This document shows, one piece after another, positions 1 to 21,752 of a stretch of 47,944 nt of DNA (its first letter is position 1; the number at the start of each line of letters is the position of its first letter). The DNA comes from Clostridiales bacterium (lineage in GTDB: Bacteria; Bacillota; Clostridia; Lachnospirales; WRAX01), in assembly GCA_031277225.1 (NCBI GenBank), contig JAITMQ010000060.1, forward strand, positions 1-47,944, given 5' to 3'. The translations under genes were made by a program, and so were the position numbers. The notes beneath the pieces were generated by a model that searched no databases, was not told the origin of the DNA, and saw only the letters and a list, made by a program, of their open reading frames with translations.

Positions 1-331
1 CAACGGCGATTCCGTTATCTAAATCGGATTCATCATCAAATAATAGAGCATATCCCCCATCACGCTCAAAAACCAACCCCGTAGGCTTTAATAATTCAAG
101 AAAATCCTCATCTTTATACGAAATGAGCAAGTTCTTAATTTCATCTTCTATCGCAGATTTATTAGCTTTGAATGATTCATAATCGGCATGTTGGCTACTT
201 GTAATTAAGTCCGTTTCCCTGTGCGAATTGGCACAGACATATATTGTGTATTGTTTTCCGCAGAAAGCAATCACGTCATTGGTGTACCAACCGTTATCAA
301 AATTCACATCAGCAAAAATTTTATCAAACAT
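1..331 (-). CDS. Hypothetical protein, truncated by the window edge
   Basis: About 110 codons of a minus-strand gene run off the left edge and are therefore absent from the ORF track. The ATG (complement of 329-331) has AAAGGGG about 8 nt upstream, a good Shine-Dalgarno site. The visible product starts MFDKIFADVNFDNGWYTNDV, is soluble and acidic, and has the look of small DUF6985-like or immunity-type proteins, but I do not recognise it firmly. It lies downstream of sipL on the same strand, separated by a family B and a family A repeat. No function is proposed. Confidence 0.6.
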   Translation of the reverse strand, partial: MFDKIFADVNFDNGWYTNDVIAFCGKQYTIYVCANSHRETDLITSSQHADYESFKANKSAIEDEIKNLLISYKDEDFLELLKPTGLVFERDGGYALLFDDESDLDNGIAV

Positions 332-376
332 CGCTAATTCCCCTTTATTTTGAAACGCCGCCATTGTGGCTTGTTT

Positions 377-452
377 AGAAGTCAGAGGTCAGAGGTCAGA
401 GGTCAGAAAAAATCTGACATCTGCTCTTTTCTGACTTCTGACCTCTGACCTT
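377..452. repeat. Family A palindromic repeat (GTCAGAG units)
   Basis: The left arm is tandem GTCAGAG units and the right arm is the complementary CTGACCT units, so the transcript can form a long hairpin. It lies between sipL and the edge gene, after sipL in the direction of transcription. There is no clear U-tract, so a terminator role here is uncertain. Related copies lie at 2148-2213, inside recG (6119-6150) and in the FliK-like gene (about 21672-21705). Confidence 0.8.
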
Positions 453-466
453 CGGTATTCTACATG

Positions 467-512
467 TTAGCCGACTTTCAGTCGGAATCTTTAGCCGGTT
501 TCAACCGGCATT
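467..512. repeat. Family B REP-like element, partial (two of three hairpins)
   Basis: Contains CCGACTTTCAGTCGG and GCCGGTTTCAACCGGC stem-loops. It matches the first two hairpins of the longer elements upstream of rsmD, der and rsuA. It abuts the sipL stop codon, overlapping it by about 2 nt. Confidence 0.8.
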
Positions 513-2079
513 AACCCTCCGCCACTTTCTTAACAACAAGCAATTTCTGCCCCGCCGCAAGAGCGGCCGTCGGCTCAATGTCATTTATAGCCGCCAATTC
601 TTCCAAATCGGCATTATAGCGTTTTGCCACAGACCACAGACTGTCCGCCTGCTGCGCCACCAAAATCACCATTGACGGCAAATTGTCCAAATCTTCGGTG
701 TTAAGCGGGTTAAATTCAATGTCTTGAATCAATTGCGCGGGTCTTAGCTCTCGAATCAGGGTGTCAAAGCTTAGGGTAAAGCGCAGCTCCACCTCGCGGC
801 CGGACAGCATATTAAAGCTGATTTGGTCGATATTATGCGTAATTGCGGCCTCCATTCCAAGGCGCGCGCCCTTGGTTTCAATAACCTGCCTAAAGGGCAG
901 ATGGGCGCGATAATTGTGCACGGGGGCTTCGTCCGAATTTGCGACATAGAGGATATTCGCCTCTACAATGCCTTCGACAATGACCTTGTCTTCAATAACC
1001 CGCCTGTCCTCAAGATGCACAAGTCCGCCAACCTGCAAAACCTGCAAAATCTCGGGCGCGCCCGAAAGTGTAACAATTTCCTTGGCGCTAAATTGATTCC
1101 TATTGCGGCAAATAAGGCTCAAATAGTCCAGACTTTGGGTTTTAATATCCAAATTTTGGTCAATGCAATAGGCATCTTCCAAAACCGAAAACTCCCTATT
1201 TTCCGAAATTTGCACATCGGCGGCAATAACCACTTCTATGGACAAAATGCGGTCTTCGCCGTCTGCATCCGGCCCAATTTCAATCAAATGGTCGGCAAGC
1301 GAAAGTCTGACATCGGAAAACACGCCTTCCCGCGCGGCCTCTACATCCAAAGAGCCCGAAAACGGCAGTTCAAAATCCGCAAAATCAATAATGGATTCGC
1401 TGTCAAAGCCCTTATACAGCGGGGTTATGAGCAAGTCGCCGCTTATGTCCACCCTGCCCGCCGCCATGGTAATTTCCCTGCTGACAATATTTATATTTGC
1501 CTGCAACAATTCCCGAATTGCGGGCTTGGCCGACGGCAAAACAATCTCGTCCCTAATGGTAAATTGTTCCACTTGCTTGCTAACCATATTATTCATGGTC
1601 AAAAACGCCATTTTCTGCTGGCTTTCGGGCAAATCGCTTATAGACCGCACGGCCTCAAAATTTTGGTTATCAAGCGCTTGCGCCTGAATATCAACGACCA
1701 CCCTATAGTTTAATTTGCGGTCGTTTACAATATGATGTTCGATATTTTCCAAATTTGCGTCCAAATTAAGCCACATATGAGGGGCAACACCCTCCATATT
1801 CAAAAAGTCGTCAATATTATTGCGCGCCGAAATGCTGTGCACCGAAATTTCTCCGCCGACATTTGCCAAATAAAGCGCATCCACAACCAATTGCCCGGAG
1901 AAACTAATTCGCCCCATATTAGCATTTGCTTTATTTATTGCCACACGCGCCGTAACTTTAAGCACCGAGGCAATATCCGGCTTAACATCGGGCACAATAA
2001 TGTCCCCCTCCAAAAGCATCTGGCTTCTCTCTCGCCCTATATGCCGATTCAACAAAATATTCTCCCGAACAAGCTCCAT
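511..2079 (-). CDS. sipL: SPOCS (DUF3794)/LysM spore coat morphogenetic protein, SipL-like
   Basis: The 522-aa product has DUF3794/SPOCS-type sequence over most of its length (an N-terminal VPDVKPDIASVLKV motif and a second copy-like region near residue 180, IVLPSAKPAIRELLQ). A C-terminal LysM domain covers about residues 470-518 (ADSLWSVAKRYNADLEELAAIN). This is the architecture of clostridial SipL, which ties the coat to SpoIVA at the forespore surface through LysM; that role is family knowledge. The start is preceded by TAGGAGGGTT, an excellent ribosome site. A possible promoter lies just upstream, and the tRNA operon terminator precedes it. It could be another DUF3794-LysM coat protein rather than the SipL orthologue. 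Confidence 0.85.
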   Translation of the reverse strand: MELVRENILLNRHIGRERSQMLLEGDIIVPDVKPDIASVLKVTARVAINKANANMGRISFSGQLVVDALYLANVGGEISVHSISARNNIDDFLNMEGVAPHMWLNLDANLENIEHHIVNDRKLNYRVVVDIQAQALDNQNFEAVRSISDLPESQQKMAFLTMNNMVSKQVEQFTIRDEIVLPSAKPAIRELLQANINIVSREITMAAGRVDISGDLLITPLYKGFDSESIIDFADFELPFSGSLDVEAAREGVFSDVRLSLADHLIEIGPDADGEDRILSIEVVIAADVQISENREFSVLEDAYCIDQNLDIKTQSLDYLSLICRNRNQFSAKEIVTLSGAPEILQVLQVGGLVHLEDRRVIEDKVIVEGIVEANILYVANSDEAPVHNYRAHLPFRQVIETKGARLGMEAAITHNIDQISFNMLSGREVELRFTLSFDTLIRELRPAQLIQDIEFNPLNTEDLDNLPSMVILVAQQADSLWSVAKRYNADLEELAAINDIEPTAALAAGQKLLVVKKVAEG

Positions 2080-2117
2080 AATAACCCTCCTAAAAATTCA
2101 AAAATTGCATTATGTTA

Positions 2118-2146
2118 ATTATATAAGCTTGTAATTCTTTTTAGAA
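2118..2146 (-). promoter_or_regulatory. Possible promoter of sipL
   Basis: On the minus strand a perfect TATAAT lies 17 bp from a weak -35 (TTCTAA), about 40 bp before the sipL ATG. The weak -35 leaves room for a sporulation sigma factor using overlapping sequence; I see no convincing sigma-E box. Confidence 0.4.
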
Positions 2147-2147
2147 C

Positions 2148-2213
2148 AAAAAGAGGTCAGAGGTCAGAGGTCAGATTTTTCTGACCTCTGACCTCTGACT
2201 TCTGACTTCTTAG
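2148..2213 (-). terminator. Rho-independent terminator of the tRNA operon, built from a family A repeat
   Basis: Read on the minus strand directly after tRNA-Cys, a GTCAGAG-type arm and its complement form a stem of about 19 or more pairs with a loop of about 6 nt. It ends in CTCTTTTTG, a U-run. This is a complete intrinsic terminator made from the repeat family found elsewhere in the window. Confidence 0.7.
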
Positions 2214-2218
2214 AAGGA

Positions 2219-2289
2219 AGGTGCCACCCGGAGTTGAACCGGGGGTCATGGAGTTGCAGTCCACTGCCTTACCACTTGGCTATGGCACC
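2219..2289 (-). tRNA. tRNA-Cys (anticodon GCA)
   Basis: The full cloverleaf can be folded by eye. The acceptor arms are GGTGCCA/TGGCACC and the discriminator is U. The anticodon arm TGGA-CTGCAAC-TCCA gives anticodon GCA, and the T arm contains GGTTCAACTCC. CCA is not encoded. It is the second gene of a two-tRNA minus-strand operon. Confidence 0.96.
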
Positions 2290-2297
2290 GACTTACA

Positions 2298-2367
2298 AAT
2301 GAATAAGGAATAATGAATAATGAATAATTACTAAAAACTATCCATTATTCATTATTCCTTATTCATT
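2298..2367. repeat. Perfect 25-bp inverted repeat between the two tRNA genes (family E)
   Basis: The left arm 2298-2322 and right arm 2343-2367 are perfect complements over 25 bp, with a 20-nt spacer. The arms consist of AATGAATAAGGAATAATG-type sequence related to the ATGAATGATGAATG repeats near 10.6-11.7 kb. In the pre-tRNA it would form a strong hairpin between tRNA-Glu and tRNA-Cys. Confidence 0.9.
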
Positions 2368-2381
2368 ATTAATTGCTTTTC

Positions 2382-2453
2382 TGACCCGTAAGGGATTCGA
2401 ACCCTTGTTACTGCCGTGAAAGGGCAGTGTCTTAACCCCTTGACCAACGGGCC
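2382..2453 (-). tRNA. tRNA-Glu (anticodon TTC)
   Basis: The acceptor arms GGCCCGT/ACGGGTC pair with one G-U. The anticodon stem CTGCC/GGCAG with loop CTTTCAC gives anticodon TTC. The T arm holds GGTTCGAATCC. CCA is not encoded. First gene of the tRNA operon, directly downstream of a consensus promoter. Confidence 0.96.
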
Positions 2454-2490
2454 TTATTGCGTAAATTGCGGAAATTGCGCAACACAAGAT

Positions 2491-2519
2491 ATTATATGCG
2501 ATATTTTTTACTTTGTCAA
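2491..2519 (-). promoter_or_regulatory. Consensus sigma-A promoter of the tRNA operon
   Basis: On the minus strand: TTGACA, 17-bp spacer, TATAAT. Both hexamers match the consensus exactly. It lies about 38 bp before tRNA-Glu, as expected for a strong stable-RNA promoter. Confidence 0.92.
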
Positions 2520-2549
2520 GACTTTTTTTAAATTTTTTTAAAATTTCTC

Positions 2550-2578
2550 TTGGAAAAATTAAAAAAAAGTGTTACAAT
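2550..2578 (+). promoter_or_regulatory. Sigma-A promoter of the asp23-fakA-recG group
   Basis: TTGGAA, 17-bp spacer, TACAAT, about 50 bp before the asp23 start. It is divergent from the tRNA promoter, with an AT-rich stretch between the two. Confidence 0.8.
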
Positions 2579-2629
2579 AGTAAATTAGAGGTTAGAAGTT
2601 AGAAATTAGAAATGGAAAGAGGGAGAGGC

Positions 2630-2986
2630 ATGGCTTATAAGATTCGGAATGAATTTGGCGTTATTGGAATTGAGAGTGAGGTGGTTGCGCGGATTGCGGG
2701 CATGGCGGCCATGGGTTGTTATGGCGTGGTTGGCATGGCGGCAAAATCCGTGCGCGACGGAATTGTCCATCTCTTGCGAATGGAAAATTTAACCAAGGGC
2801 TTAAGGCTTTCGCCTGTCGGCAATTCATTGAATATTGAATTGCATATTATTGCGGAATATGGCACAAATATTATCGCCATATGTGAGTCCCTTATGAGTA
2901 CCGTTAAATATAAGGTCGAGTTGGCCTGCGGCCTCAATATCGGGCAAGTGGATGTTTTTGTGGAGGGACTGAGGGTAAATGGCTAA
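2630..2986 (+). CDS. yloU: Asp23/Gls24 family envelope stress protein (YloU-like)
   Basis: The product opens MAYKIRNEFGVIGIESEVVA and continues with the Asp23/Gls24 pattern (ARIAGMAAMGCYGVVGMA, then a C-terminal VDVFVEGLRV). The ORF-track start at 2612 has no good ribosome site. The ATG at 2630 has GAGGGAG just upstream and gives the usual family length of about 118 aa, so I prefer it. Its TAA overlaps the start of fakA by 8 nt, so the two are coupled, as in yloU-yloV of other Bacillota. Family members are small cytoplasmic or membrane-associated proteins of unclear role, linked to envelope stress. Confidence 0.9.
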   Translation: MAYKIRNEFGVIGIESEVVARIAGMAAMGCYGVVGMAAKSVRDGIVHLLRMENLTKGLRLSPVGNSLNIELHIIAEYGTNIIAICESLMSTVKYKVELACGLNIGQVDVFVEGLRVNG

Positions 2987-4637
2987 ATTAAAGAAAATTG
3001 ACGGAGCTTTGCTTCGCAAAATGATTATTTGCGGAACAAATAATTTGGTGGCAAATAAAGAGAGGGTAAATTCGCTTAATGTCTTTCCCGTGCCGGATGG
3101 GGATACGGGGACAAATATGTCCTTGACGGCGATTGCGGCGGCCAAAGAGGTGGCAAAGCTTGACACCGACGATATTTTCGCCATAAGCAAGGCCGCCGCC
3201 AGCGGCGCGCTTCGGGGCGGCCGCGGCAATTCGGGCGTAATTTTTTCGCAATTTTTTAGGGGCTTTTCGCGGGCCTTAGAGGGGCTTAGAAGCGTTGGCA
3301 CGCGCGAAATTGCCGACGCTTTTGCAAATGCCTCTAAAACGGCTTATAAGGCCGTTATGCGCCCGCAAGAGGGCACAATTTTGACGGTTGGCCGCCATAT
3401 GGCCGAGGTTGCGCAGAAATATGCCTATGCAACCGACGATATTCGCGCATTTGCCAAGCAAATTATAAGCGAAGGACATGCCATGCTTAAACGCACGCCC
3501 GAAATGCTGCCTGTTTTAAAGCAGGCGGGGGTTGTGGATTCGGGCGGCGACGGGCTTATGTGCTTTTTAGTCGGCGCAATGGACGGCGTGGACGCAATTG
3601 ACCCGCAAATTGTCGAAGATGCCGGCCCAAGCAGTCATGCCCAAGCCGAGGCTGATTTTTCCGCCATTGCGGGCATGTCGCATGAAGAGATTACATTTGG
3701 GTATTGCACGGAATTCTTTATCAATGTAGAGGGCTTTTCGGAAGAAGCCGAGGACGAATTTAAGGCCTATTTGGAAACCATGGGCGATTCTGTTGCCATG
3801 GTCGCCGACGACGAAATTGTAAAGGTTCATGTGCATACGGACAATCCCGGGGCGGTTATGGAGCGCGCCATGCAAATTGGGCCGCTTTCTGCAATTAAAA
3901 TTGACAATATGCGGATGCAACATGCCGAGGCCGGCGGCTTGCATAGCCAGAGCGAAGCTCCGCGCAAGCCAATGGGCGTTGTTGCAATAAGTTCCGGCAC
4001 GGGCTTTAAAGAAATTTTTATGGATTTGGGCGCGGACTATGTGATTGAAGGCGGCCAGACCATGAATCCCTCCGCCGAGGACATAGCTCGCGGTGTACAA
4101 AAAGTTAATGCCGACAATATTATTATTTTGCCGAATAATAAAAATATTATTTTGGCGGCAAGCCAGGCGGCGGAGCTTTGCGAGGGGCAAAATGTAGTGG
4201 TGGTCGCCTCTAAAACCATGCCGCAGGGCATTTCCGCCCTTATGAATTATCTGCCCGAAGACGATGCCGAGGATGCCTTTGCGAATAATGTCGCGCAAAT
4301 GGAGGAGGCCTTGACCGCCGTGGCGACGGGTCAAATTACCGTTGCGATTCGGGATACCGAGTTGGACGGACACAATGTGCGCGAAGGCGACTATATCGGC
4401 ATTTTGGACGGCAAAATTGTTTGCACCCACGCCGATATAAAGGTTGCGGCTGTTGAGCTGATTGACATTATGATGGCGGACGGATATGATATTTTCACGG
4501 TTTATCCGGGCGCGGAAGCTAGTGCGGAGCACAGCGCAATTATTGAGGCGCATTTGGCCGAAAATTATGCCGATTGCGAGGCAACAGCGGCCTTTGGCGG
4601 ACAGGCCGTCTATAATTTCATTTTTTCGGCGGAATAG
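2979..4637 (+). CDS. fakA: DAK2-domain fatty acid kinase subunit (FakA/YloV)
   Basis: At 552 aa this is the usual length for FakA/YloV. The DAK2 ATP-binding motif NVFPVPDGDTGTNM is at residues 34-47 and GGRGNSGVIFSQFFRG at about 78-93, followed by the middle and C-terminal domains typical of the family. FakA phosphorylates fatty acids bound to FakB carriers for phospholipid synthesis. No fakB is seen in the window. It overlaps asp23 by 8 nt and precedes recG, matching the conserved yloU-yloV-recG neighbourhood. Around residues 320-330 the interdomain linker HSQSEAPRKP is encoded by CATAGCCAGAGCGAAGCTC, also found in the noncoding mosaic at about 6831 (family G). The linker thus appears to contain a repeat. 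Confidence 0.93.
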   Translation: MAKLKKIDGALLRKMIICGTNNLVANKERVNSLNVFPVPDGDTGTNMSLTAIAAAKEVAKLDTDDIFAISKAAASGALRGGRGNSGVIFSQFFRGFSRALEGLRSVGTREIADAFANASKTAYKAVMRPQEGTILTVGRHMAEVAQKYAYATDDIRAFAKQIISEGHAMLKRTPEMLPVLKQAGVVDSGGDGLMCFLVGAMDGVDAIDPQIVEDAGPSSHAQAEADFSAIAGMSHEEITFGYCTEFFINVEGFSEEAEDEFKAYLETMGDSVAMVADDEIVKVHVHTDNPGAVMERAMQIGPLSAIKIDNMRMQHAEAGGLHSQSEAPRKPMGVVAISSGTGFKEIFMDLGADYVIEGGQTMNPSAEDIARGVQKVNADNIIILPNNKNIILAASQAAELCEGQNVVVVASKTMPQGISALMNYLPEDDAEDAFANNVAQMEEALTAVATGQITVAIRDTELDGHNVREGDYIGILDGKIVCTHADIKVAAVELIDIMMADGYDIFTVYPGAEASAEHSAIIEAHLAENYADCEATAAFGGQAVYNFIFSAE

Positions 4638-4642
4638 CCGCG

Positions 4643-4671
4643 CGTCATTCCCGCGAAAGCGGGAATCCCCC
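4643..4671. repeat. Family C palindrome (dRS3-like ATTCCC-N8-GGGAAT)
   Basis: CGTCATTCCCGCGAAAGCGG followed by GAATCCCCC. The core ATTCCCGCGAAAGCGGGAAT is a 20-bp palindrome repeated many times in the window (for example 10752, 11117, 11549, 11781, 18770, 19815, 19918, 19961, 20109, 29803, 33913, 34786). It fills the fakA-recG gap and comes within 10 nt of the recG start. Confidence 0.9.
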
Positions 4672-4679
4672 GTTGGTGA

Positions 4680-6728
4680 ATGATTATGCTATTAACAGAC
4701 AGTATAGAAAAATTAAAAAATGTAGGCAGCGCGCGCCGCACAGCACTTGCTCAAATCGGCGTTCACACCGTCGCAGACCTGCTTGAATACTCCCCCCGCG
4801 AATATGTAGACCGCAGCATAATCTCGCAAATTGCACAGCTTCACGAGGGGCAGCTGGCCACGATTTTGGCGTGGCGGCAGGGGGCGGCGCAGTCCACGCA
4901 GGGGCGCGGAAAAACCATAACCCGCGTAAATTTTAGCGACGGCACGGGGCAAATTGGCATTACATGGTTTAATCAGCCCTATATGGCCGCAAATTTTAAG
5001 GACGGCCTGAAATACTTTATTTCGGGGCGGGTTGTGCGCGGCCTTTCGGGGCGGCTTACTCTCGAAACCCCCGAATATGAGGCGCAAAATGCGCAAGGCC
5101 TGTCGGCGGGCCGAATTGTGCCGATTTATAGGCTTACAAGCGGCCTAACCCAGAAAATGCTGCGAGGGCTGATTAAGCAGGCCTTGGACGGCACAAAAGG
5201 CCAAATTGCGGACTTTTTGCCGGAAAATCTTCGGATTGCAAATGGATTGTGCAGAAGGGATTTCGCCATTGAGAATATCCATTTTCCGGCCTGTGGCGAG
5301 AGTTTTTACACCGCGCGTAAGCGGCTGGTTTTTGACGAATTATTCCTGCTACAGGCTTCGCTAATGGCCGCCAAGGGGCAACTTCGGCATGAAACCAAAC
5401 CCTTCGCAAACATGGACATTGCGCCGATTTTAGCCGCCCTGCCCTATGAACTGACCGCCGACCAAGCCAAGGTTGTAGCCGAAATCATGAACGACATTTC
5501 GAGTGGCTTTGCGCTAAATCGCCTGCTTCAAGGGGATGTGGGCAGCGGCAAAACCGCCGTGGCCATGATAATTTGCTATCTTACGGCCAAAAACGGCGCG
5601 CAAGCCGCGCTTATGGCCCCCACGGAAACGCTGGCGGTTCAGCATTTTGCGTCATTTAAGGAATTGTTTGACGGGCTTGGAATTCGCGTGGGGCTATTGG
5701 TTGGTTCGCTTAAAGCCGGGGAAAAGCCGGAGATTAAGGCAAAACTTGCTGACGGCGAAGTCGACATTGTAATCGGCACGCACGCCCTAATCCAAGAAAA
5801 TGTCGAATTTAAGCGGCTTGGACTGGTTATCACCGACGAACAACATCGCTTTGGCGTGCGCCAGCGCGCAAAACTCGGCGCAAAGGGCGGCGCGCCGCAT
5901 ATCCTTGTTATGACGGCCACGCCGATTCCGCGCTCGCTGGCCATGGTGCTCTATGGCGATATGGATATTTCTGCCATTCGCAACCTTCCGCCCGGCCGCC
6001 AAAAAATCGACACCTATACCGTTGGCAAATCCTACCATCCGCGGATTTTCGCCTTTATTCGTAAGGAGATTGAGGCGGGGAGGCAGGCCTATATCATCTG
6101 TCCTTTAATTGAATCCGGGGAGTCAGAGGTCAGAGGTCAGAGGTCAGAAATCAGTGAAGTCGTGAAATTCGCGGAACAGCTTAAGAGCGGGGTTTTTGCG
6201 GACTTAAGCCTTGGGGTTCTGCATGGGCGACTAAGGTCGGAGGAGAAGAATGAGATTATGGGGGCGTTTGCGCGGAATGAAGTGCAGGTTTTGGTTGCTA
6301 CGACGGTTATCGAAGTGGGTATAAATGTGCCGAATGCCACGGTGATTTTAATTGAAAATGCCGAGCGTTTCGGGCTTTCACAGCTTCATCAGCTGCGCGG
6401 GCGCGTTGGGCGCGGGGCGCATAAATCCTATTGCATTTTGATTACGGATTTCAAAAACGAGATTACGGCCAAGCGAATGAAGGCCATGACAAGCACAAAT
6501 GACGGCTTTGAGCTGTCCGAGTTGGATTTGGAATTGCGCGGGCCGGGCGAATTTTTCGGCACGGCGCAACATGGGCTGCCTAAGCTTATGCTGGCGAATC
6601 TTTATCGGGATTTGGATATTTTAGAACTGGCGCGAAATGCCGCGCTTGGCATGGGGCGGGTGCAATTTCCGCCTCTAAAAGCCAGAATTGACCAGTTGTT
6701 GGGGAAAATGCAGCAAATCGCGCTATGA
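4680..6728 (+). CDS. recG: ATP-dependent DNA helicase RecG
   Basis: At 682 aa, full length for RecG. It has an N-terminal wedge/OB region (about residues 1-190), Walker A GDVGSGKTAVA near 285, DEQHRFGVRQR near 386, TATPIPRSLA near 415, motif VI QLRGRVGRG, and the C-terminal ELRGPGEFFGTAQHGLP region. RecG remodels stalled forks and branched DNA. The track start is 4680. An ATG at 4686 has the better spacing from GGTGA, so the first two residues are uncertain. Residues about 480-490 (SEVRGQRSEISEV) are a family A GTCAGAG repeat read in frame between helicase motifs. The last ~30 codons are duplicated downstream (6984-7070). Confidence 0.96.
   Translation: MIMLLTDSIEKLKNVGSARRTALAQIGVHTVADLLEYSPREYVDRSIISQIAQLHEGQLATILAWRQGAAQSTQGRGKTITRVNFSDGTGQIGITWFNQPYMAANFKDGLKYFISGRVVRGLSGRLTLETPEYEAQNAQGLSAGRIVPIYRLTSGLTQKMLRGLIKQALDGTKGQIADFLPENLRIANGLCRRDFAIENIHFPACGESFYTARKRLVFDELFLLQASLMAAKGQLRHETKPFANMDIAPILAALPYELTADQAKVVAEIMNDISSGFALNRLLQGDVGSGKTAVAMIICYLTAKNGAQAALMAPTETLAVQHFASFKELFDGLGIRVGLLVGSLKAGEKPEIKAKLADGEVDIVIGTHALIQENVEFKRLGLVITDEQHRFGVRQRAKLGAKGGAPHILVMTATPIPRSLAMVLYGDMDISAIRNLPPGRQKIDTYTVGKSYHPRIFAFIRKEIEAGRQAYIICPLIESGESEVRGQRSEISEVVKFAEQLKSGVFADLSLGVLHGRLRSEEKNEIMGAFARNEVQVLVATTVIEVGINVPNATVILIENAERFGLSQLHQLRGRVGRGAHKSYCILITDFKNEITAKRMKAMTSTNDGFELSELDLELRGPGEFFGTAQHGLPKLMLANLYRDLDILELARNAALGMGRVQFPPLKARIDQLLGKMQQIAL
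6119..6150 (+). repeat. Family A repeat inside recG
   Basis: Four tandem GTCAGAG units read in frame as SEVRGQRSE within the second helicase domain. Reading continues normally on both sides into conserved RecG sequence, so the unit is tolerated as an insertion of about 10 residues in a loop. Confidence 0.85.
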
Positions 6729-6775
6729 AGCGGAAATGCCGGTTAAAAACCGGCTAAAGTAACGGTTGGAAACCG
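6642..6775 (+). repeat. Direct repeat, copy 1: recG 3' end plus flank
   Basis: A 134-bp segment covering the recG C-terminal codons, stop and following family B half-element recurs at 6984-7117 with a constant 342-bp offset and no indels. Differences are confined almost entirely to the LKARIDQLLGK codons and are mostly synonymous. Confidence 0.9.
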
Positions 6776-6983
6776 TCCCTAAAGGGTCGGACAGACTTCA
6801 GGACAGTGCGCGGTGCTACGCACTAGCTCCATAGCCAGAGCGAAGCTCTGCGCCACTTTGTCTTCACTCCGGCCGTTCCTAAAGGGTCGGAATGTGGAAT
6901 GCGGAATAATACCAAGCCGCAACCTATCCAGCAGCAATAAGCTTGTCTTTTTGCCGCAATACTTCGGCAAAAAAAGCTTATGT
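6776..6983. other. Noncoding mosaic of short repeats between the recG tail copies
   Basis: About 208 bp with no supported gene. It contains a family G unit (GTGCTACGCACTAGCTCC then CATAGCCAGAGCGAAGCTC), two AAAGGGTCGGA units, a GAATGTGGAATG unit, and an AAGCTT-flanked palindrome around TTGCCGCAATACTTCGGCAA. Confidence 0.7.
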
Positions 6984-7070
6984 GCCCTCGGCATGGGGCG
7001 GGTGCAATTTCCGCCATTGAGGGAAAGAATTAATCAATTGCTTGGAAAAATGCAGCAAATTGCGCTATGA
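6984..7070 (+). pseudogene. Duplicated recG 3' fragment
   Basis: The in-frame remnant reads LGMGRVQFPPLRERINQLLG and ends MQQIAL, nearly identical to the RecG C-terminus (LKARIDQLLG in the real gene). It lacks any upstream recG sequence, so it is a 3' fragment. The ORF track's 6813-7070 frame merely reads into it through repeat DNA. Confidence 0.85.
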
Positions 7071-7076
7071 AGCGGA

Positions 7077-7157
7077 AATGCCGGTTAAAAACCGGCTAAA
7101 GTAACGGTTGGAAACCGACTTCCAGTCGGAATCTTCAGCCGGTTTCAACCGGCATTA
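7077..7157. repeat. Family B three-hairpin element upstream of rsmD
   Basis: Outer ends ATGCCGGTT and AACCGGCAT are complementary. Inside are hairpins GCCGGTTAAAAACCGGC, CCGACTTCCAGTCGG and GCCGGTTTCAACCGGC. Compared with the element before der it lies in the opposite orientation. It ends about 25 bp before the rsmD ATG. Confidence 0.88.
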
Positions 7158-7181
7158 CCGCTTAGACATCGGGAGAACATT

Positions 7182-7724
7182 ATGAGAGTAATTTCAGGAA
7201 AAGCAAAAGGCATGGGGCTGTTTTCGCCGCAGGGCAATTCAATCCGCCCCACTTCGGACTATGTCAAAGAAAGCCTTTTTAATTTAATTGGCCACGACAT
7301 CTATAATGCCGAATTTTTAGACCTTTTCGCAGGCTCGGGCGGCGTGGGAATAGAGGCCTTAAGCCGCGGTGCCGCCTCCGCCACCTTTATCGACATTTCC
7401 CAAAAGTCCATACATCTAATCCGCCGCAATCTTCAAAAAACAAGGCTTTTTGAAAATGCCGTGCTATTGAAAGGCGAATTGCCAAATACCCTAAAAAAGC
7501 TGGACGGCCAAAAATTCGACATAATATTTCTGGACCCGCCGTATTTTAGAGATTTTGCGGCAAAAATGCTGGATTCCATTCTAAAGCTTGACATTTTGCA
7601 CGAAGACGGCTATATAGCCCTTGAGGCCGGCGAATTTGACGAAATCCCGCCGCATCCCTCGCTGAAAATCTTTAAAGAGCGCGTCTATAGCAGCACAAAA
7701 TTGGTATTTATGGAGGTATTATGA
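7182..7724 (+). CDS. rsmD: 16S rRNA (guanine966-N2)-methyltransferase RsmD
   Basis: A 180-aa SAM-dependent methyltransferase of the usual RsmD length. It has N-terminal [10 protein letters not shown], the SAM loop [19 protein letters not shown] and the catalytic DPPY motif (IIFLDPPYF). It methylates G966 of 16S rRNA during 30S assembly. GGGAG lies 8 nt before the ATG. The TGA overlaps the coaD ATG (ATGA), giving translational coupling. rsmD-coaD is a conserved pair (ylbH-coaD in Bacillus). The leader contains a family B element. Confidence 0.95.
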
Positions 7725-8200
7725 CAGCAGTCTATCCCGGCAGTTTTGACCCGGTTACCTACGGGCATTTGGACATAATTCGGCGCGCCGCCAAAATCAC
7801 GGACAGGCTTATAGTGGCTGTGGCAAGCAATTCCGCCAAAAAGCCCATGTTTAGCGTGGATGAGCGTCTTGAAATGATGCGCGCCGTCTGCGCAGGCATC
7901 CCCGGCGTGGAAGTTGCGTCATTTTCCGGCCTTTTGGTCGAATTTGCGAAAAAAAGCGGGGCTGTGGCCATAATTCGCGGCCTGCGCGCCCTAACCGATT
8001 TTGAATACGAATTTCAAATGGCTCTGGCCAATCGCATGTTGGATGAAAATATTGAAACTTTATTTATTTCAACAAATGTGCAATATTCGTTTATTTCTTC
8101 GTCCTTGGTGAAGGAAATCGCGCTTTTGGGCGGAGATGCCGCGTCTATGACGCCAAAAATCGTTTTCAATAATATCTTGCAAAAAATTAGTGGTTTGTGA
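7721..8200 (+). CDS. coaD: Phosphopantetheine adenylyltransferase CoaD
   Basis: 159 aa, the normal CoaD length. It has the nucleotidyltransferase signature [19 protein letters not shown] at the N-terminus, [15 protein letters not shown] in the middle and the C-terminal [19 protein letters not shown]. It transfers AMP from ATP to 4'-phosphopantetheine in CoA synthesis. It overlaps rsmD by 4 nt. The -10 box of the next promoter begins immediately after its TGA. Confidence 0.96.
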
Positions 8201-8206
8201 TATAAT
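8177..8206 (+). promoter_or_regulatory. Promoter of the coiled-coil gene and argS
   Basis: TTGCAA, 18-bp spacer, TATAAT preceded by TG (extended -10: TGATATAAT). The -35 lies within the coaD 3' end. An AAAAGGGGAGG ribosome site follows. Confidence 0.75.
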
Positions 8207-8238
8207 GTTTGGAAGGGTAAAAAAGGGGAGGCACAAAG

Positions 8239-8790
8239 ATGGAACTTATTAATTCACAAATTGATAAAATCGAAGATTTGCTGGCGAAGCTGGACGAGGT
8301 GATTGACAACGCGCGTTCTGTACCTTTTTCTGCGAAGATAAGCATTGAAAAAGAGGCCTTGTACAGCGTGATTGACGACATAAGGGGCACGGTTTACGAT
8401 ATGCGCAAGGGCCTGCCGTCGGAAATTAATCAGGCAAGGCGTGTGCTGCATGACAGGGATAATCACCTTAGCGACGCACGCTCTAAAGCCGAAATGATTA
8501 TAAAGGCGGCGGAATCCGAGGCGCATAGGATTCTTAACGAGCATGACTTGGTTGTCCATGCCAAAAAAATGGCGGCGCAAATTGAAGAAGAGGCCAAGGC
8601 CAACGAGCGGGAATATATGGTTCATGCCGCCGAATATGCCGTGGATATTTTAGACCAAATGGACAAACTAATGCAAAACACCTTGAATGAGCAACTTAAG
8701 CGCGCAAATGATATTGAAAATTTCTATAGCGGTGTTTTGGCGGATATTCAAGATAATCGGAGTTCTGTCAAAAATCAAATTAGCAAGTAG
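8239..8790 (+). CDS. Coiled-coil protein of unknown function
   Basis: 183 aa, almost entirely helical and rich in charged heptads (about residues 1-25, 70-125 and 140-183), with no signal peptide or membrane segment. The central part, SDARSKAEMIIKAAESEAHR, resembles the stalk helices of ATP synthase B/H subunits and DivIVA-like proteins, so automatic pipelines may call it an ATPase subunit. I see no ATPase motif. The ribosome site AAAAGGGGAGG is strong. It lies between coaD and argS, 8 bp before argS, and is probably co-transcribed with it. Confidence 0.85.
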   Translation: MELINSQIDKIEDLLAKLDEVIDNARSVPFSAKISIEKEALYSVIDDIRGTVYDMRKGLPSEINQARRVLHDRDNHLSDARSKAEMIIKAAESEAHRILNEHDLVVHAKKMAAQIEEEAKANEREYMVHAAEYAVDILDQMDKLMQNTLNEQLKRANDIENFYSGVLADIQDNRSSVKNQISK

Positions 8791-8798
8791 GAGAGCTT

Positions 8799-10502
8799 AT
8801 GGACTTTAAGTTAGAAGTTGCAAAACTTATCGCTAATGCAGCGACTTTGGATTTGGAAACTATAGCCGAGGCTATAGAAATTCCCCCAAATCCCGATTTA
8901 GGCGATTTCGCCTTCCCCTGCTTTAGGCTGGCAAAAACCCTGCGCAAAGCTCCGCCCATTATCGCGCAGGAAATTAAGCAAAACATCGAAATGCCCGATT
9001 TTTTAGCGTCCGTGGAAATTGCGGGCGCTTATATTAACTTCTTTGTTAAGCGCGATTTTTACGCCGAGGAAGTCCTGCGCAAAATTTTTGAACAGGGCGC
9101 AAATTTCGGTCGGCAGAACTTGGGCAATGGCGGCTGCGTAGTAATTGACTATTCCCATCCAAATATGGCAAAACCCTTCCATGTCGGGCATCTGCGCTCC
9201 ACCGTCATAGGCCACGCCCTCTACAATATTTTCAATTTTTTGGGCTATCGTTCGTTTTCAATAAATTATTTGGGCGATTGGGGAACGCAATTCGGCAAGG
9301 TTATCGCCGCCTATGAAAATTGGGGCAGTAAGGAAGAAGTGGACGCGGGCGGCATTGCAGAGCTTAATCGCCTCTATGTCAAATTTCATGTGGAAGTCGA
9401 GGCGGACAAGACCTTGGACGAACAGGCGCGCGCCTGGCATATGAAAATGGAGCAGGGCGACGAATATGCCCTGGCATTGTGGCATTGGTTCAAAGAAATA
9501 AGCATGAAAGAATATGCCGCCATTTACAGGCTTTTTGATATTGATTTTGATTCTTACCAAGGTGAGAGTTTTTATAATGACAAAATGTCGCCGGTTGTGG
9601 AGCGGCTTCGCGAAAGCGGCCTGCTTACAGAAAGCGACGGCGCGATGATTGTTGAGCTTGAGGAGCATAAAATGCCGCCCTGCCTAATTTTGCGAAGCGA
9701 CGGCGGCACGCTTTACGCCACGCGCGACATAACGTCGGTTTTGCACCGTAAAGAGGCCTATAATTTCGTTAAGGCCCTCTATGTAACCTCGCATGAACAA
9801 ATCCTGCATTTTGCGCAGGTTTTTAAGGTGATAGAGCTTATGGGGCATGATTTTGAGCTTATGCATGTGCCTTTTGGTTATATGAATTTGCCGGGCGGCA
9901 AAATGTCCACTCGCAAGGGAAATGTGCTGTTGATGCAGGATTTGCTGGACCAGACTATTGACAAAATTAAGGGCATTATAGAGGAGAAAAACCCGGATTT
10001 AAAGGATAAAGAGGTTGTGGCGCAACAGGTTGGAATCGGTGCGGTAATTTTTAATGACCTCTATAACAGCCGCATTAAGGATGTGGAATTTTCGTGGGAG
10101 CGAATGTTGTCCTTTGAGGGGGAAACGGGGCCATATGTGCAATATACCCATGCGCGCTGTTGTTCTGTTTTGAATAAGGCCGTAGGGGCGACCGCCCTCG
10201 GTCGCCCGTTCGCCGACGCGAATCTTGGCCTGTTGACAGACGCGGCGGAATTTGAGCTGATTAAGATTCTGAACGGCTTCCCCGAAAAAATCGCCGAAGC
10301 CGCCGAAAAATATGAGCCTTTTATTATCTCGCGCTTCGTGATGCAACTCGCCCAGGCTTTTAATAAATTCTACCGCGACAACCCCATCCTGCGCGCCGAA
10401 GAAGAACTAAAAAAAGCCCGCCTACACCTAACCCATTGCACAAAAACCGTAATCGCAGCAGCCCTAAACCTACTAGGCATCAAAGCCCCGCAAGAAATGT
10501 AG
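8799..10502 (+). CDS. argS: Arginine-tRNA ligase
   Basis: The 567-aa class I synthetase carries the N-terminal Add-1 domain, HVGH (the HIGH motif) at residues 128-131 in NMAKPFHVGHLRST, KMSTRKGN (the KMSKS motif) near 368, and the DALR anticodon-binding domain at the C-terminus. It charges tRNA-Arg. The start has a GGAG site about 8 nt upstream. Around residues 462-474 (VGATALGRPFADA) it contains the family F repeat GTAGGGGCGACCGCCCTCGG read in frame. The repeat lies near the junction with the DALR domain. An intrinsic terminator follows. Confidence 0.96.
   Translation: MDFKLEVAKLIANAATLDLETIAEAIEIPPNPDLGDFAFPCFRLAKTLRKAPPIIAQEIKQNIEMPDFLASVEIAGAYINFFVKRDFYAEEVLRKIFEQGANFGRQNLGNGGCVVIDYSHPNMAKPFHVGHLRSTVIGHALYNIFNFLGYRSFSINYLGDWGTQFGKVIAAYENWGSKEEVDAGGIAELNRLYVKFHVEVEADKTLDEQARAWHMKMEQGDEYALALWHWFKEISMKEYAAIYRLFDIDFDSYQGESFYNDKMSPVVERLRESGLLTESDGAMIVELEEHKMPPCLILRSDGGTLYATRDITSVLHRKEAYNFVKALYVTSHEQILHFAQVFKVIELMGHDFELMHVPFGYMNLPGGKMSTRKGNVLLMQDLLDQTIDKIKGIIEEKNPDLKDKEVVAQQVGIGAVIFNDLYNSRIKDVEFSWERMLSFEGETGPYVQYTHARCCSVLNKAVGATALGRPFADANLGLLTDAAEFELIKILNGFPEKIAEAAEKYEPFIISRFVMQLAQAFNKFYRDNPILRAEEELKKARLHLTHCTKTVIAAALNLLGIKAPQEM
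10181..10212 (+). repeat. Family F repeat inside argS
   Basis: GTAGGGGCGACCGCCCTCGG plus TCGCCC forms a GGGCGACC/GGTCGCCC palindrome. It matches noncoding copies at about 11029-11063, 34574-34600 and 34864-34890, but here is translated as part of ArgS. Confidence 0.88.
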
Positions 10503-10560: not shown

Positions 10561-11878
10561 CGGCTGGCCGTCATTGCGGGCTTGACCCGCAATCCCCCGT
10601 TTGTTCATCCACGGCTGAAGCTGTGGATGAAATGATGAATGTTAAATGATGAATGATGAATGAAAACCCCGAAACCTCACGCTTTTGAACTTGATTCATC
10701 ATTCATCATTCATAATTCATAATTCCGACCCGAAGGGTCGGACAAGTGGGGGATTCCCGCTTTCGCGGGAATGACGTTTTTCGTGCTTTTCGTGCTTTTC
10801 GTGCTTTTCGTGCTTTTCGTGCTTTTCGTGGTTAAAAGGATTGAGCCACGAAAGGCACGAAAGGCACGAAAACGCCATTCGTACAAGCCGTCATTGCGGG
10901 AATGACGGGGTTTGTTGCCGCGTCCGTTGGAATACAGGCGGCCTAAAGGCCGCGATGCCGCTTCGCGGCCGGGCGCAGAGCTGCGCTCTGGCTTTGTTAT
11001 GAGAGCCTGCGCGAAGCGCCGCGCCAGAGGGCGACCGAGGGCGGTCGCCCCTACGGTCGCCCTAAAGGCCGCAGGGTCATTCCCGGCTTGGCCGGGAATC
11101 TCCGGAATTGGCAGGGGATTCCCGCTTTCGCGGGAATGGCGGAAACTTCCGGCGGGGGATTTGGCTTGCGACTAACGTCATCCGCGCTTGGTCCTTTTCG
11201 TGGCTTTCGTGCGTTTCGTGCTTTTCGTGGTTAAAAAGATTGAACCACGAAAAGCACGAAAGCCCACGAAAACACCACTCGTACAAACCGTCATTGCGGG
11301 AATGATGGGGTTTGTTGCCGCGTCCGTTGGAATACGGGCGGCCTAAAGGCCGCAGGGTCATTCCCGGCTTGATGGAGAATCCCCCGTTTGTTCATCCACG
11401 GCTGAAGTCGTGGATGAAATGATGAATGAAGAATGATGAATGAAGAATGAAGAATGAAGACCCCGAAACCTCACGCTTTTGGACTTAATTCATCATTCAT
11501 AATTTATCATTTATAATTCCGACCCGAAGGGTCGGACAAGCGGGGGATTCCCGCTTTCGCGGGAATGACGGGGGGTATTGGAGCATCCGTTGGAATACGG
11601 GCGGCCCAAAGGCCGCAGGGTCATTCCCGGCTTGTTGCGGAATCCCCCCGTTTGTTCATCCGCAGCTGAAATGATGAATGATGAATGAAAACCCCGAAAC
11701 CTCATGCTTTTGAACTTAATTCATCATTCATAATTCATAATTCATAATTCCGACCCGAAGGGTCGGACAAGTCGGGGGATTCCCGCTTTCGCGGGAATGA
11801 CGTTTTTCGTGCCTTTCGTGCTTTTCGTGGTTAAAAAGATTGAACCACGAAAGGCACGAAAAACACGAAAAACGAAAA
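10561..11878. repeat. Repeat cluster: three imperfect copies of a composite module
   Basis: About 1.3 kb without a supported gene. A recurring order is visible: CCGTTTGTTCATCCACGGCT (10597, 11384, 11648), an ATGAATGATGAATG inverted repeat (family E), CCGACCCGAAGGGTCGGACA, a dRS3-like palindrome (family C), and a TTTTCGTGCTTTTCGTG/CACGAAAAGCACGAAA inverted repeat (family D). GTCCGTTGGAATAC with a GGCGGCCTAAAGGCCGC palindrome also recurs near 10922, 11328 and 11588. A family F unit lies near 11029. The cluster is bounded by two copies of the same terminator. Short ORFs here encode only repeat-derived peptides. Confidence 0.85.
10777..10872. repeat. Family D inverted repeat with a 9-bp tandem array
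   Basis: Five tandem CGTGCTTTT units, then CGTGGTTAAAAGGATTGAGC and CACGAAAGGCACGAAAGGCA, which complement the first arm. Other copies lie at about 11195-11275, 11803-11872, 20017-20088, 33836-33905 and 34708-34780. Confidence 0.85.
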
Positions 11879-11912: not shown

Positions 11913-11952
11913 AGTTTCTAGTTTCTAGTTTCTAATGTCTAATTTCTAATGT

Positions 11953-12264
11953 CTAGTTAATTCTAGTATAACTATGCGTGCCGTCTATCCATCTTAGTGT
12001 TATGGTATTTCCGGAGATGGAATAGCCTACGCGTCCGTTATCGTGGGCGCCGGAAAATATTATATAATTGCCCGATGTTCTCCAAGTGAAGGCGCTTTCC
12101 CAGCTTCTGCCGCTTCCGTCGGCATTAAATGTGATTGTCCAGCCCGGGTCTATAGTCCAAGCCCATGTGCCAACCAAAGCCTCATCCCGCGAATTACAAC
12201 CCGTCATAACAAAAACGGCAGAAACCATAGTAAGCACAAGCAAAACCGCTAAAAATCTTCTCAT
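11953..12264 (-). CDS. Small lipoprotein, lipocalin-like/DUF5640-type (paralogue 1)
   Basis: The 103-aa product has a lipoprotein signal peptide (MRRFLAVLLV start, lipobox VMTGC with Cys23). A mature part of about 80 aa begins with the LVGTWAW pattern of small lipocalin-like proteins, followed by short beta-strand pairs (GWTITFNADGSGR, ISGNTITLRWID). It should be anchored to the outer face of the membrane. AGAGGAGG precedes the ATG. It is a paralogue of the next gene and probably co-transcribed with it. The stop codon and last residues (TRIN) are formed by a TTCTAGTTAATT-type repeat (family I). Ligand unknown. Confidence 0.82.
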   Translation of the reverse strand: MRRFLAVLLVLTMVSAVFVMTGCNSRDEALVGTWAWTIDPGWTITFNADGSGRSWESAFTWRTSGNYIIFSGAHDNGRVGYSISGNTITLRWIDGTHSYTRIN

Positions 12265-12275
12265 AAAAGCCCTCC

Positions 12276-12307
12276 TCTAATTTCTAATCTCTAATTTCTA
12301 ATTTCTA
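12276..12307. repeat. Family I repeat (TTTCTAATTTCTAG) at the lipoprotein gene junction
   Basis: Tandem CTAATTTCTAATCTCTAATT units. They form the stop codon of the upstream gene (12298-12675) and reach to just before the ribosome site of the downstream one. Related stretches overlap the stops at 11953 and 35634 and precede asp23 at 2584-2611. Confidence 0.75.
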
Positions 12308-19621: not shown

Positions 19622-19786
19622 AATGTGGAATGTGGAATGTGGAATGTGCGCCGCCATAACGTCATGCCGGGCTTGACCCGGCATCCCCTGCCTCTGTCAT
19701 CCGTTGGATGAAATGTGGAATGTGGAATGTGGAATGTGCGCCGCCATAACGTCATGCCGGGCTTGACCCGGCATCCCCTGCTATTT
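19607..19786. repeat. 90-bp tandem duplication overlapping the rnhB stop
   Basis: TCATCC-TTGGATGAAATG, GAATGTGGAATGTGGAATG, CGCCGCCATAACGTCATGCC and GGGCTTGACCCGGCATCCCC occur in the same order at 19607 and 19697, a period of 90 bp with very few differences. Confidence 0.9.
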
Positions 19787-20180: not shown

Positions 20181-21752
20181 ATGTATAATATCGAAGTGAG
20201 TGCGCCAAAGCCTAATAGCCCGCATGTGGCTGTTGCGCTTCCCGAGGTTATTATTGGGCAGGGTGAGGGCGGCGGAAAGCCGCCGCCGCAGGGCGAGGCA
20301 CAGGTTAATCCTTTGGACGCGCCGGCACTTTCGGCGAAGTTTTCGCAAGAGGTTTTGAGCTTGATTCAGACGCTTAAAGGGGATGGTTTGATGAATATGA
20401 TTGAGCCTGTGGGCATTTCGGGCGGCGGGGCAATGATGGATTTAACGCCCGCGGCGGGCGTAAATCCCGATAATTCGGGCACGAATATGCAAATGCCCGT
20501 GCAGGGCAAAATGCCGCCACAGCTGAAGAATTTGGCCGGCCTTGTTCCCGGACAGGTTTTTTCCGCCGAAATTCTGGATATTCAGCAGGGTTCGGTTACT
20601 TTGCAGATGGCGGAAGGGCCGCCGCTGACGGCGCGTTCGCTGGTTACGCCCGACGCGCGAATCGGCGATTTGGCCAGCTTTTTGGTGCGTGAAACCAAGC
20701 CCGGCCAGATTTTTCTGGAATTTTTTCGCGGCGGCGTTGGTGGCGGGGATGGCAAGGTTTCCGCGAGTATCATCCGCGAGGCCCTGTCCGCCGCCAATAT
20801 GCAGCATACCGCCGCAAATGCGGGCATTGTTGAGGATTTGGTGTTGCGTAATATGCCCATAGACCTGCAAAACCTTCAGCGCGCCGCCTTTTTCCGCTAT
20901 TCCATGCCGGGCGCGCCCTTTGAGCATATTCAATTCCTCCTACAGAATAATTTTGCGGCGACAGACCGCACGGTGCAGGTTTTTCAAGGGCTTATGAGTG
21001 GTGAGCTAACTCTTGCGGGGGAAATTGCTAAAGCTGTAACCATACTCGATAGCCCAAATTTTACAACCAACAGCCCACAGGCTGCTAGTGTTTGGGAAGG
21101 GCTTGTCAGCCAGCTTAAAGCCCACCAAGCTGTAAATGTAACCCCCGAAACGCCGCAAGGTATGCAGAATCAACAGACCCCGCTCCCCTTACCAAATCCT
21201 AACAATTTCCTGGAGGGGCTTAAGACTATTGCACAGGAAATATCTACCTTAGCCCGCGAGGGCGGCAATACCCCGCTTGCGCAGGCCGCCGAAAATATCG
21301 CCGACATTATCGACTTTTCAAGAAATATCACCGAAACCAAAATGTATTTCCAACTGCCCTTTAGCGCGGAAAATAAGCATTTGGCGGAATTGCATATCTT
21401 TAAGAAAAAGGGCGGCGGGCGCAAAAACGACGGCAAGGTGGCCACGGCCTTAATTGCGCTGGATATGGCGTTTTTGGGGCGGGTCGAAATTCTTGTTAAC
21501 AAGAATAACAAGAATGTGAACCTGCAATTTCGCGGCGATAAAGACTCGACTTTGGACGCGGTTAGCCTAAACAGCTTGGATTTGGCGAATCTCTTGAATG
21601 AGGCGGGCTATGTTCTGGCGGGGCTTAAGACTCGGAAGATTGATGAGAAATTCGATTTAACGCAGGGTGAGGAGAGGTCAGAGGTCAGAGGTCAGAGGTC
21701 AGAGGAGTATTTAGGGATTCCTAAGAGGTATTCGTTTGATGTGAGGATATGA
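20181..21752 (+). CDS. FliK-like (hook-length control C-terminal domain) protein, YlqG-like
   Basis: About 523 aa from ATG 20181 (GGGGGG 5-10 nt upstream). The track start at 20100 would add repeat-encoded peptide, so I reject it. The N-terminal half is Pro/Gly/Gln-rich and low in conservation. The C-terminal part (about 400-480) carries a FliK-type domain ending ALIALDMAFLGRVEILVNKN. Its neighbours rnhB and the FlhB-like gene match the rnhB-ylqG-ylqH order. No flagellar structural gene lies nearby. Near the C-terminus GEERSEVRGQRSEEYLG is a family A GTCAGAG repeat read in frame. Confidence 0.75.
   Translation: MYNIEVSAPKPNSPHVAVALPEVIIGQGEGGGKPPPQGEAQVNPLDAPALSAKFSQEVLSLIQTLKGDGLMNMIEPVGISGGGAMMDLTPAAGVNPDNSGTNMQMPVQGKMPPQLKNLAGLVPGQVFSAEILDIQQGSVTLQMAEGPPLTARSLVTPDARIGDLASFLVRETKPGQIFLEFFRGGVGGGDGKVSASIIREALSAANMQHTAANAGIVEDLVLRNMPIDLQNLQRAAFFRYSMPGAPFEHIQFLLQNNFAATDRTVQVFQGLMSGELTLAGEIAKAVTILDSPNFTTNSPQAASVWEGLVSQLKAHQAVNVTPETPQGMQNQQTPLPLPNPNNFLEGLKTIAQEISTLAREGGNTPLAQAAENIADIIDFSRNITETKMYFQLPFSAENKHLAELHIFKKKGGGRKNDGKVATALIALDMAFLGRVEILVNKNNKNVNLQFRGDKDSTLDAVSLNSLDLANLLNEAGYVLAGLKTRKIDEKFDLTQGEERSEVRGQRSEEYLGIPKRYSFDVRI

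Follow-up and report, generated by a model that had tools for sequence, protein, structure and literature searches.

Heptanucleotide repeats are, according to one account, the most abundant of the longer simple repeats in most of the bacterial genomes examined, and polymerase slippage has been proposed to explain them (PMC4679880). Their origin is not agreed upon. The TAACTGA repeats of marine Beggiatoaceae and cyanobacteria have a 7-nt unit and are tandem, dispersed and mostly intergenic (MacGregor 2015, PMC4679880). One orientation of this unit is free of stop codons and is sometimes found as protein (LSVISYQ), the copies in open reading frames belonging mostly to hypothetical proteins or to protein ends (PMC4679880). 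In Xanthomonas and Nostoc the heptamers GGGAATC and GGGGA(C/T)T occur genome-wide, prefer around four units and are under-represented in coding regions, according to a report that also cites the STRR, tandem heptamers of Calothrix and related cyanobacteria (PMC4692102). The RPE of Rickettsia, palindromes of 105-146 bp, have been described in frame in 19 reading frames of these bacteria (PMC2229807).

The repeat analysed here has the unit GTCAGAG and was followed from the recG gene in the window, by which we mean the whole stretch of 47,944 nt under analysis; this is contig C30 of G000, a 2.16-Mb draft genome in 177 contigs. Like the TAACTGA repeats of Beggiatoaceae it is built of 7-nt units, tandem, dispersed, for the most part intergenic and stop-free in one orientation, and TAACTGA itself is also present in G000. 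Unlike them, GTCAGAG arrays are found inside the linkers of many conserved genes, and their intergenic copies are mostly two-armed hairpins. With the Xanthomonas and Nostoc heptamers the repeat has in common the length of the unit, the genome-wide occurrence, the preference for about four units and, apparently, the depletion from coding sequence, whereas those units are G-rich and quadruplex-forming and the GTCAGAG arrays are not of such a type. The likeness to RPE lies in dispersed arrays that stand in frame within conserved genes and are tolerated there, presumably as translated peptide. However, RPE are two-armed palindromes of 105-146 bp inserted whole, while the coding GTCAGAG arrays are single-arm direct repeats of 20-34 nt. 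The GTCAGAG case is a heptanucleotide repeat that is RPE-like in effect but lacks two of the features by which RPE are defined.

Results

The array in recG and other arrays in the window

The recG gene (4680-6728, + strand) is an intact open reading frame for an ATP-dependent DNA helicase RecG of 682 aa, with the Pfam domains RecG_wedge, DEAD, Helicase_C and RecG_dom3_C; its best solved relative is the RecG of T. maritima (1gm5). At 6122-6148 (+) it contains a (GTCAGAG)3.9 array, in frame, that corresponds to residues 481-490 (ESEVRGQRSE). A first-pass annotation had reported four GTCAGAG units in frame at this place. The frame, the array and the intact reading frame stand, while the fourth unit is short of its last base, the 27 nt comprising three whole GTCAGAG units followed by GTCAGA (TRF: period 7, 3.9 copies, 100%). 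Alignment with relatives bears out the further observation that conserved RecG sequence resumes on both sides of the array (E-SEVRGQRSE-I). The description of this copy as palindromic had to be abandoned: it has one arm and no inverted partner, and it folds no better than shuffled sequences (z +1.3). The window contains 16 copies of GTCAGAG, far more than the 1.27 expected by chance, and there are 16 perfect runs of period 7, compared with 0-4 for every other period between 4 and 12 and with none in shuffled sequence. With its exact 7-nt period, its tandem arrangement and its at least three units, the array is a bacterial heptanucleotide tandem repeat.

Two intergenic copies in the window are two-armed, and the noncoding hairpins that the same annotation had seen outside recG are confirmed in them. 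The copy at 381-449 consists of four forward units and an inverted arm that together form a hairpin (z -7.64), and it has a 41-nt core in common with a copy elsewhere in the genome (G000:C82:15615-15690). The copy at 2152-2206 adjoins a tRNA gene and forms a perfect hairpin from three forward and four inverted units (z -9.75). An Rfam search over positions 1-9000 matched only tRNAs, so neither hairpin matches a curated RNA family. A second coding copy, absent from the first-pass annotation, is a one-armed (GTCAGAG)3.9 array at 21677-21703 (+; ERSEVRGQRSEE), set in frame close to the C-terminal end of a FliK-like flagellar hook-length protein (Pfam Flg_hook).

Variant arrays were also found in the window. 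One of ATTAGAG/GTTAGAA units, one-armed, lies in a 5' leader at 2584-2610 (+), and two of ATTAGAN units lie on the minus strand, one noncoding at 11931-11950 and the other at 12276-12302, immediately before the start codon of the reading frame at 11953-12264 (-). The ATTAGAA variants in 5' leaders, both those in the window (2584-2610, 12276-12302) and those at other loci (L105 ~1278, L107 ~1930, L106 ~1935), are placed immediately ahead of a likely Shine-Dalgarno sequence and start codon, which recalls the upstream placement of the TAACTGA repeats in Beggiatoaceae. Other heptamer families are represented by AATGAAT, AATGTGG and ATTAGAA in the window and by TAACTGA in the genome, where the TAACTGA 21-mer has 12 matches. 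AATGAAT, partly in inverted pairs, and AATGTGG, inside a 90-nt duplication, occur at 2298-2374, 10630-10725, 11418-11519, 11717-11750 and 19622-19738. STRR heptamers likewise comprise several sequence families within one genome, and in this Calothrix and its relatives resemble G000, although units and host differ. We know of no STRR array in a core gene of Calothrix or its relatives.

Distribution of the repeat and its two forms

A strict 20-mer of the repeat (GTCAGAGGTCAGAGGTCAGA) had 31 matches in G000. Among 57 relatives it was matched once, in a single genome, and of 398 further genomes drawn from the phylum one contained it, the three overlapping matches in the latter representing a single array; its reversed control gave no match in G000 and its relatives or in the phylum sample. 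The relaxed family RTYAGAN x 3 gave 114 matches in G000 and one in each of two relatives. With 31 strict and 114 degenerate matches, and 61 arrays read, the repeat is scattered over many loci within a single genome. Beyond the lineage, more than 100 stretches across many bacterial phyla contained a GTCAGAG 21-mer, a number that is a lower bound, and the unit is therefore not unique to the lineage of G000. About a fifth of the arrays in those stretches (20 of 88) fell within long reading frames by a rough rule.

In G000, 17 of the 61 arrays, 16 of them in the sense orientation, lay inside reading frames of 250 codons or more, a proportion that suggests depletion from coding sequence when set against a genome that is presumably mostly coding. 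Two of the 17 (C106, C129) may be untranslated, as they are located close to the probable start codon or ahead of it. Among the host genes recognized through Pfam or orthologues are recG, uvrA, radA, ftsK/spoIIIE, spoIID and the gene for glutamine synthetase III (GlnA-III), together with genes for a DbpA-type DEAD-box helicase, an Amidase_3 amidase, a BcrAD_BadFG ATPase (BadF-like), a BlaR1-type peptidase, the FliK-like protein and proteins with DUF1385 and DUF4097. The coding arrays are short, with 3-5 units that span 27 nt in recG and 20-34 nt in the other genes. Among GTCAGA-rich arrays, at least two inverted units were present within 70 bases in 25 of 32 noncoding cases and in none of 17 coding cases (Fisher p = 5e-8). 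The two-armed form is thus confined to intergenic DNA, and the copies in genes are one-armed.

In the sense orientation the repeat is stop-free in all frames and, 7 and 3 having no common factor, each frame gives the same hydrophilic heptapeptide cycle, VRGQRSE. In the antisense orientation each frame meets TGA within 21 bases, and no run of three perfect antisense units is free of TGA. The sole antisense coding array is that of spoIID, and it deviates from the unit at precisely the would-be TGA codon, which is TTA.

The site in RecG and placement in other proteins

In an AlphaFold model of RecG (mean pLDDT 84), residues 478-489 are one of only two stretches with pLDDT <50; they coincide with the array and form a loop between a strand (469-473) and a helix (487-503). 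Mapping onto structure, which the first-pass annotation had recommended with a surface loop in mind, accordingly places the array in a lowest-confidence and putatively disordered loop of the model, a location predicted to be compatible with the fold. Conservation of this site among relatives is in the lowest 2% of the protein's windows, and compared with T. maritima RecG (1gm5) six extra residues are found exactly at the array. The distance between the motifs IICP and LHGR is 38 residues in the window's RecG. In genera whose RecG is 65-68% identical it is 41-44 residues (35 in one) of unrelated acidic or polar sequence. At 62-63% identity, in the same family, it is 35 residues in two further genomes and 29 in three more, and in the rest of the order it is mostly 29-33, with 40 in two. 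Measured against these relatives, all of them of other genera, the loop differs by a net -3 to -6 or +3 residues. That RecG orthologues might have a homologous segment of the same length here was the objection foreseen in the first-pass annotation, and it is half true: the nearest genera do have a loop at this place, longer and of unrelated sequence. As the loop is longer in these genera and varies from 35 to 44 residues, recG gives no ground for claiming an insertion of any defined multiple of 3, and the array sits in a loop whose length changes freely.

The same tendency was found when 12 coding arrays were compared with orthologues from up to nine related genomes, using a local null model of about 120 residues on either side of the array (the whole protein for RecG). 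Ten of the 12 arrays were at sites of unequal length among the relatives, where 2.2 would be expected; the count was 9 of 12, against 2.1, when the array residues were masked and the relatives aligned first. The observed 10/12 or 9/12 was reached in none of the simulations (100,000 and 200,000). At most array sites residue conservation among relatives was well below the local average. A net gain at the array was seen in DUF1385 (4 residues), in the DUF4097 protein (about 8) and, by comparison with a single relative, in the BlaR1-type protein (about 15), while the array in UvrA has a length equal to that of the relatives' segment and overlaps conserved RRQ codons.

Two genes have arrays in more than one genome. 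The BadF-like genes of G000 and of its relative G005 (L061, L116) contain perfect GTCAGAG arrays of the same codon position, phase and length; this array is absent from the other relatives, and G005 has no other strict copy. In G000:C39 a TAACTGA array within a gyrase/topoisomerase IV subunit A gene, near its end (L104 2075-2095), reads AVISYQLSVIS, and the orthologue in G012 (L286) has an eroded period-7 version, TATCNNN, at the same place.

Discussion

Taken together, the results make it probable that a heptanucleotide repeat of the RTYAGAN family, with the unit GTCAGAG, has multiplied in the lineage of G000, and that the segment in recG is a copy of it, presumably translated. Heptanucleotide repeats, some of them translated, are already described; what is new are the numerous core genes that serve as hosts and the division between two-armed and one-armed copies. 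The first-pass annotation had read the segment as a mobile palindrome that was inserted into recG and translated. Of this reading, a dispersed and lineage-specific repeat within the reading frames of RecG and of a dozen or more further proteins, in RecG at a loop modelled as disordered, is supported, and the inserted RPE-like palindrome is not. Translated repeats in core genes are thus possible without a mobile palindrome of the RPE type, and G000, with one-armed and stop-free copies in about a dozen core proteins, offers a natural map of protein sites that tolerate foreign peptide as well as a clean test case for how heptamers spread.

The most likely route of spread would be nucleation at short words that resemble the unit, followed by 7-nt slippage or copying of a short template. 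Between genes the repeat usually takes the form of two inverted arms that make a hairpin, and within genes that of a single arm, almost always in the stop-free orientation. Arrays born in conserved parts of genes would be lost, and those in fast-evolving, length-tolerant loops and linkers would persist; in RecG the array would have come to fill the disordered loop that joins the strand with the end IICPLIE to the next helix, where most likely it serves no useful purpose and is merely tolerated. Native residues beside several arrays are spelled by unit-like words, such as ELE in glutamine synthetase III (GAATTAGAG), RRQ in UvrA (AGACGTCAG) and AREQ in the BadF-like gene (GCGAGAGAGCAG), which points to such words as sites of nucleation. 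It could be argued instead that one arm of a hairpin was pasted into protein loops by template switching during replication, and the occurrence of one unit at dozens of loci, several perfect 27-nt arrays and the core common to intergenic copies would fit such copying. We regard it as unlikely, since the unit-like native codons of these three genes fit birth in place and the flanks upstream of nine coding arrays weakly continue the phase of the repeat (seed words in phase 0.46 vs 0.28), although a signal of this weakness cannot separate birth in place from pasting. Nucleation and slippage should also be interpreted with some caution, as the UvrA array, equal in length to the segment in relatives, is not explained by simple insertion or slippage, and the matching BadF-like arrays in two genera are not easily given by recent independent origin.

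Transposition of a two-armed element into recG in frame, with translation as in Rickettsia, was weighed as a rival, and it draws on the existence of two-armed copies, on the many genes that carry the sequence and on the 41-nt core common to C30:381-449 and C82:15615-15690, from which it follows that some whole two-armed elements were copied between genes. We rejected it for recG, and consider it very unlikely as an account of the gene copies: none of the 17 coding arrays has an inverted arm within 70 bases, the recG copy has one arm and does not fold, its 27 nt compare with 105-146 bp in RPE (PMC2229807), and net length differences of -3 to -6 or +3 residues leave no defined insertion. Still less probable is that the arrays are contingency loci, in which gain or loss of a 7-nt unit switches recG and other genes by frameshift. 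A change of unit number would indeed shift the frame unless three units changed together, and in other bacteria phase variation has been traced to short tandem repeats (PMC4235727, PMC4692102), but the coding arrays have few units and are in housekeeping genes, and the copies surveyed are in open frame, which they are by construction of the survey. That native RecG sequence resembles the repeat by chance is scarcely credible. The loop is hydrophilic in relatives as well; however, the array is a perfect 27-nt copy of the genome's own repeat, of which the strict form has 31 matches and its reversed control none, and the relatives' DNA at this site is unrelated.

The BadF-like and topoisomerase arrays add complexity to this account; they may go back to shared ancestry, to repeated birth at a seed word present in both genomes or to local gene transfer. 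The pairs G000/G005 and G000/G012 are also the basis for a further reading, in which a sequence-specific process in the bacterial family of G000 would place heptamer arrays time and again in the same linkers of proteins. We hold this to be rather unlikely; if true, linkers would be written by a process that generates repeats, and would not merely tolerate rare accidents.

Mobilization by a RAYT was also considered, as in REP/RAYT systems palindromic repeats are likewise dispersed near genes and a Y1 transposase gene is present in the genome. Only one Y1_Tnp gene was found in G000, and the palindrome that flanks it is a different one: it is bordered at both ends by the REP-like GCCGGTTAAAAACCGGC (L104, G000:C39, ~1480-1520 and ~1930-1970) and not by GTCAGAG arrays, so that RAYT mobilization of the heptamers is unsupported. 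GCCGGTTAAAAACCGGC and the Y1_Tnp gene are a RAYT/REP pair independent of the heptamers. In the window, GCCGGTTAAAAACCGGC is found at 6738, 7080 and 24516 (-). A 134-nt direct repeat (88%; 6642-6775 and 6984-7117) comprises the last codons of recG and the GCCGGTTAAAAACCGGC palindrome that follows, and this downstream duplication leaves a tail fragment of recG at 6981-7067. Another palindrome, CGTCATTCCCGCGAAAGCGGGAATCCCC, has 17 copies or variants in the window, at 4646, 10752, 11117, 11546, 11778, 18762, 19810, 19958, 20109, 29803, 33909 and other sites. A variant of it in the ftsK linker of G000 (L007) is apparently translated as RHSELDAESP, in the same gene that carries a heptamer array.
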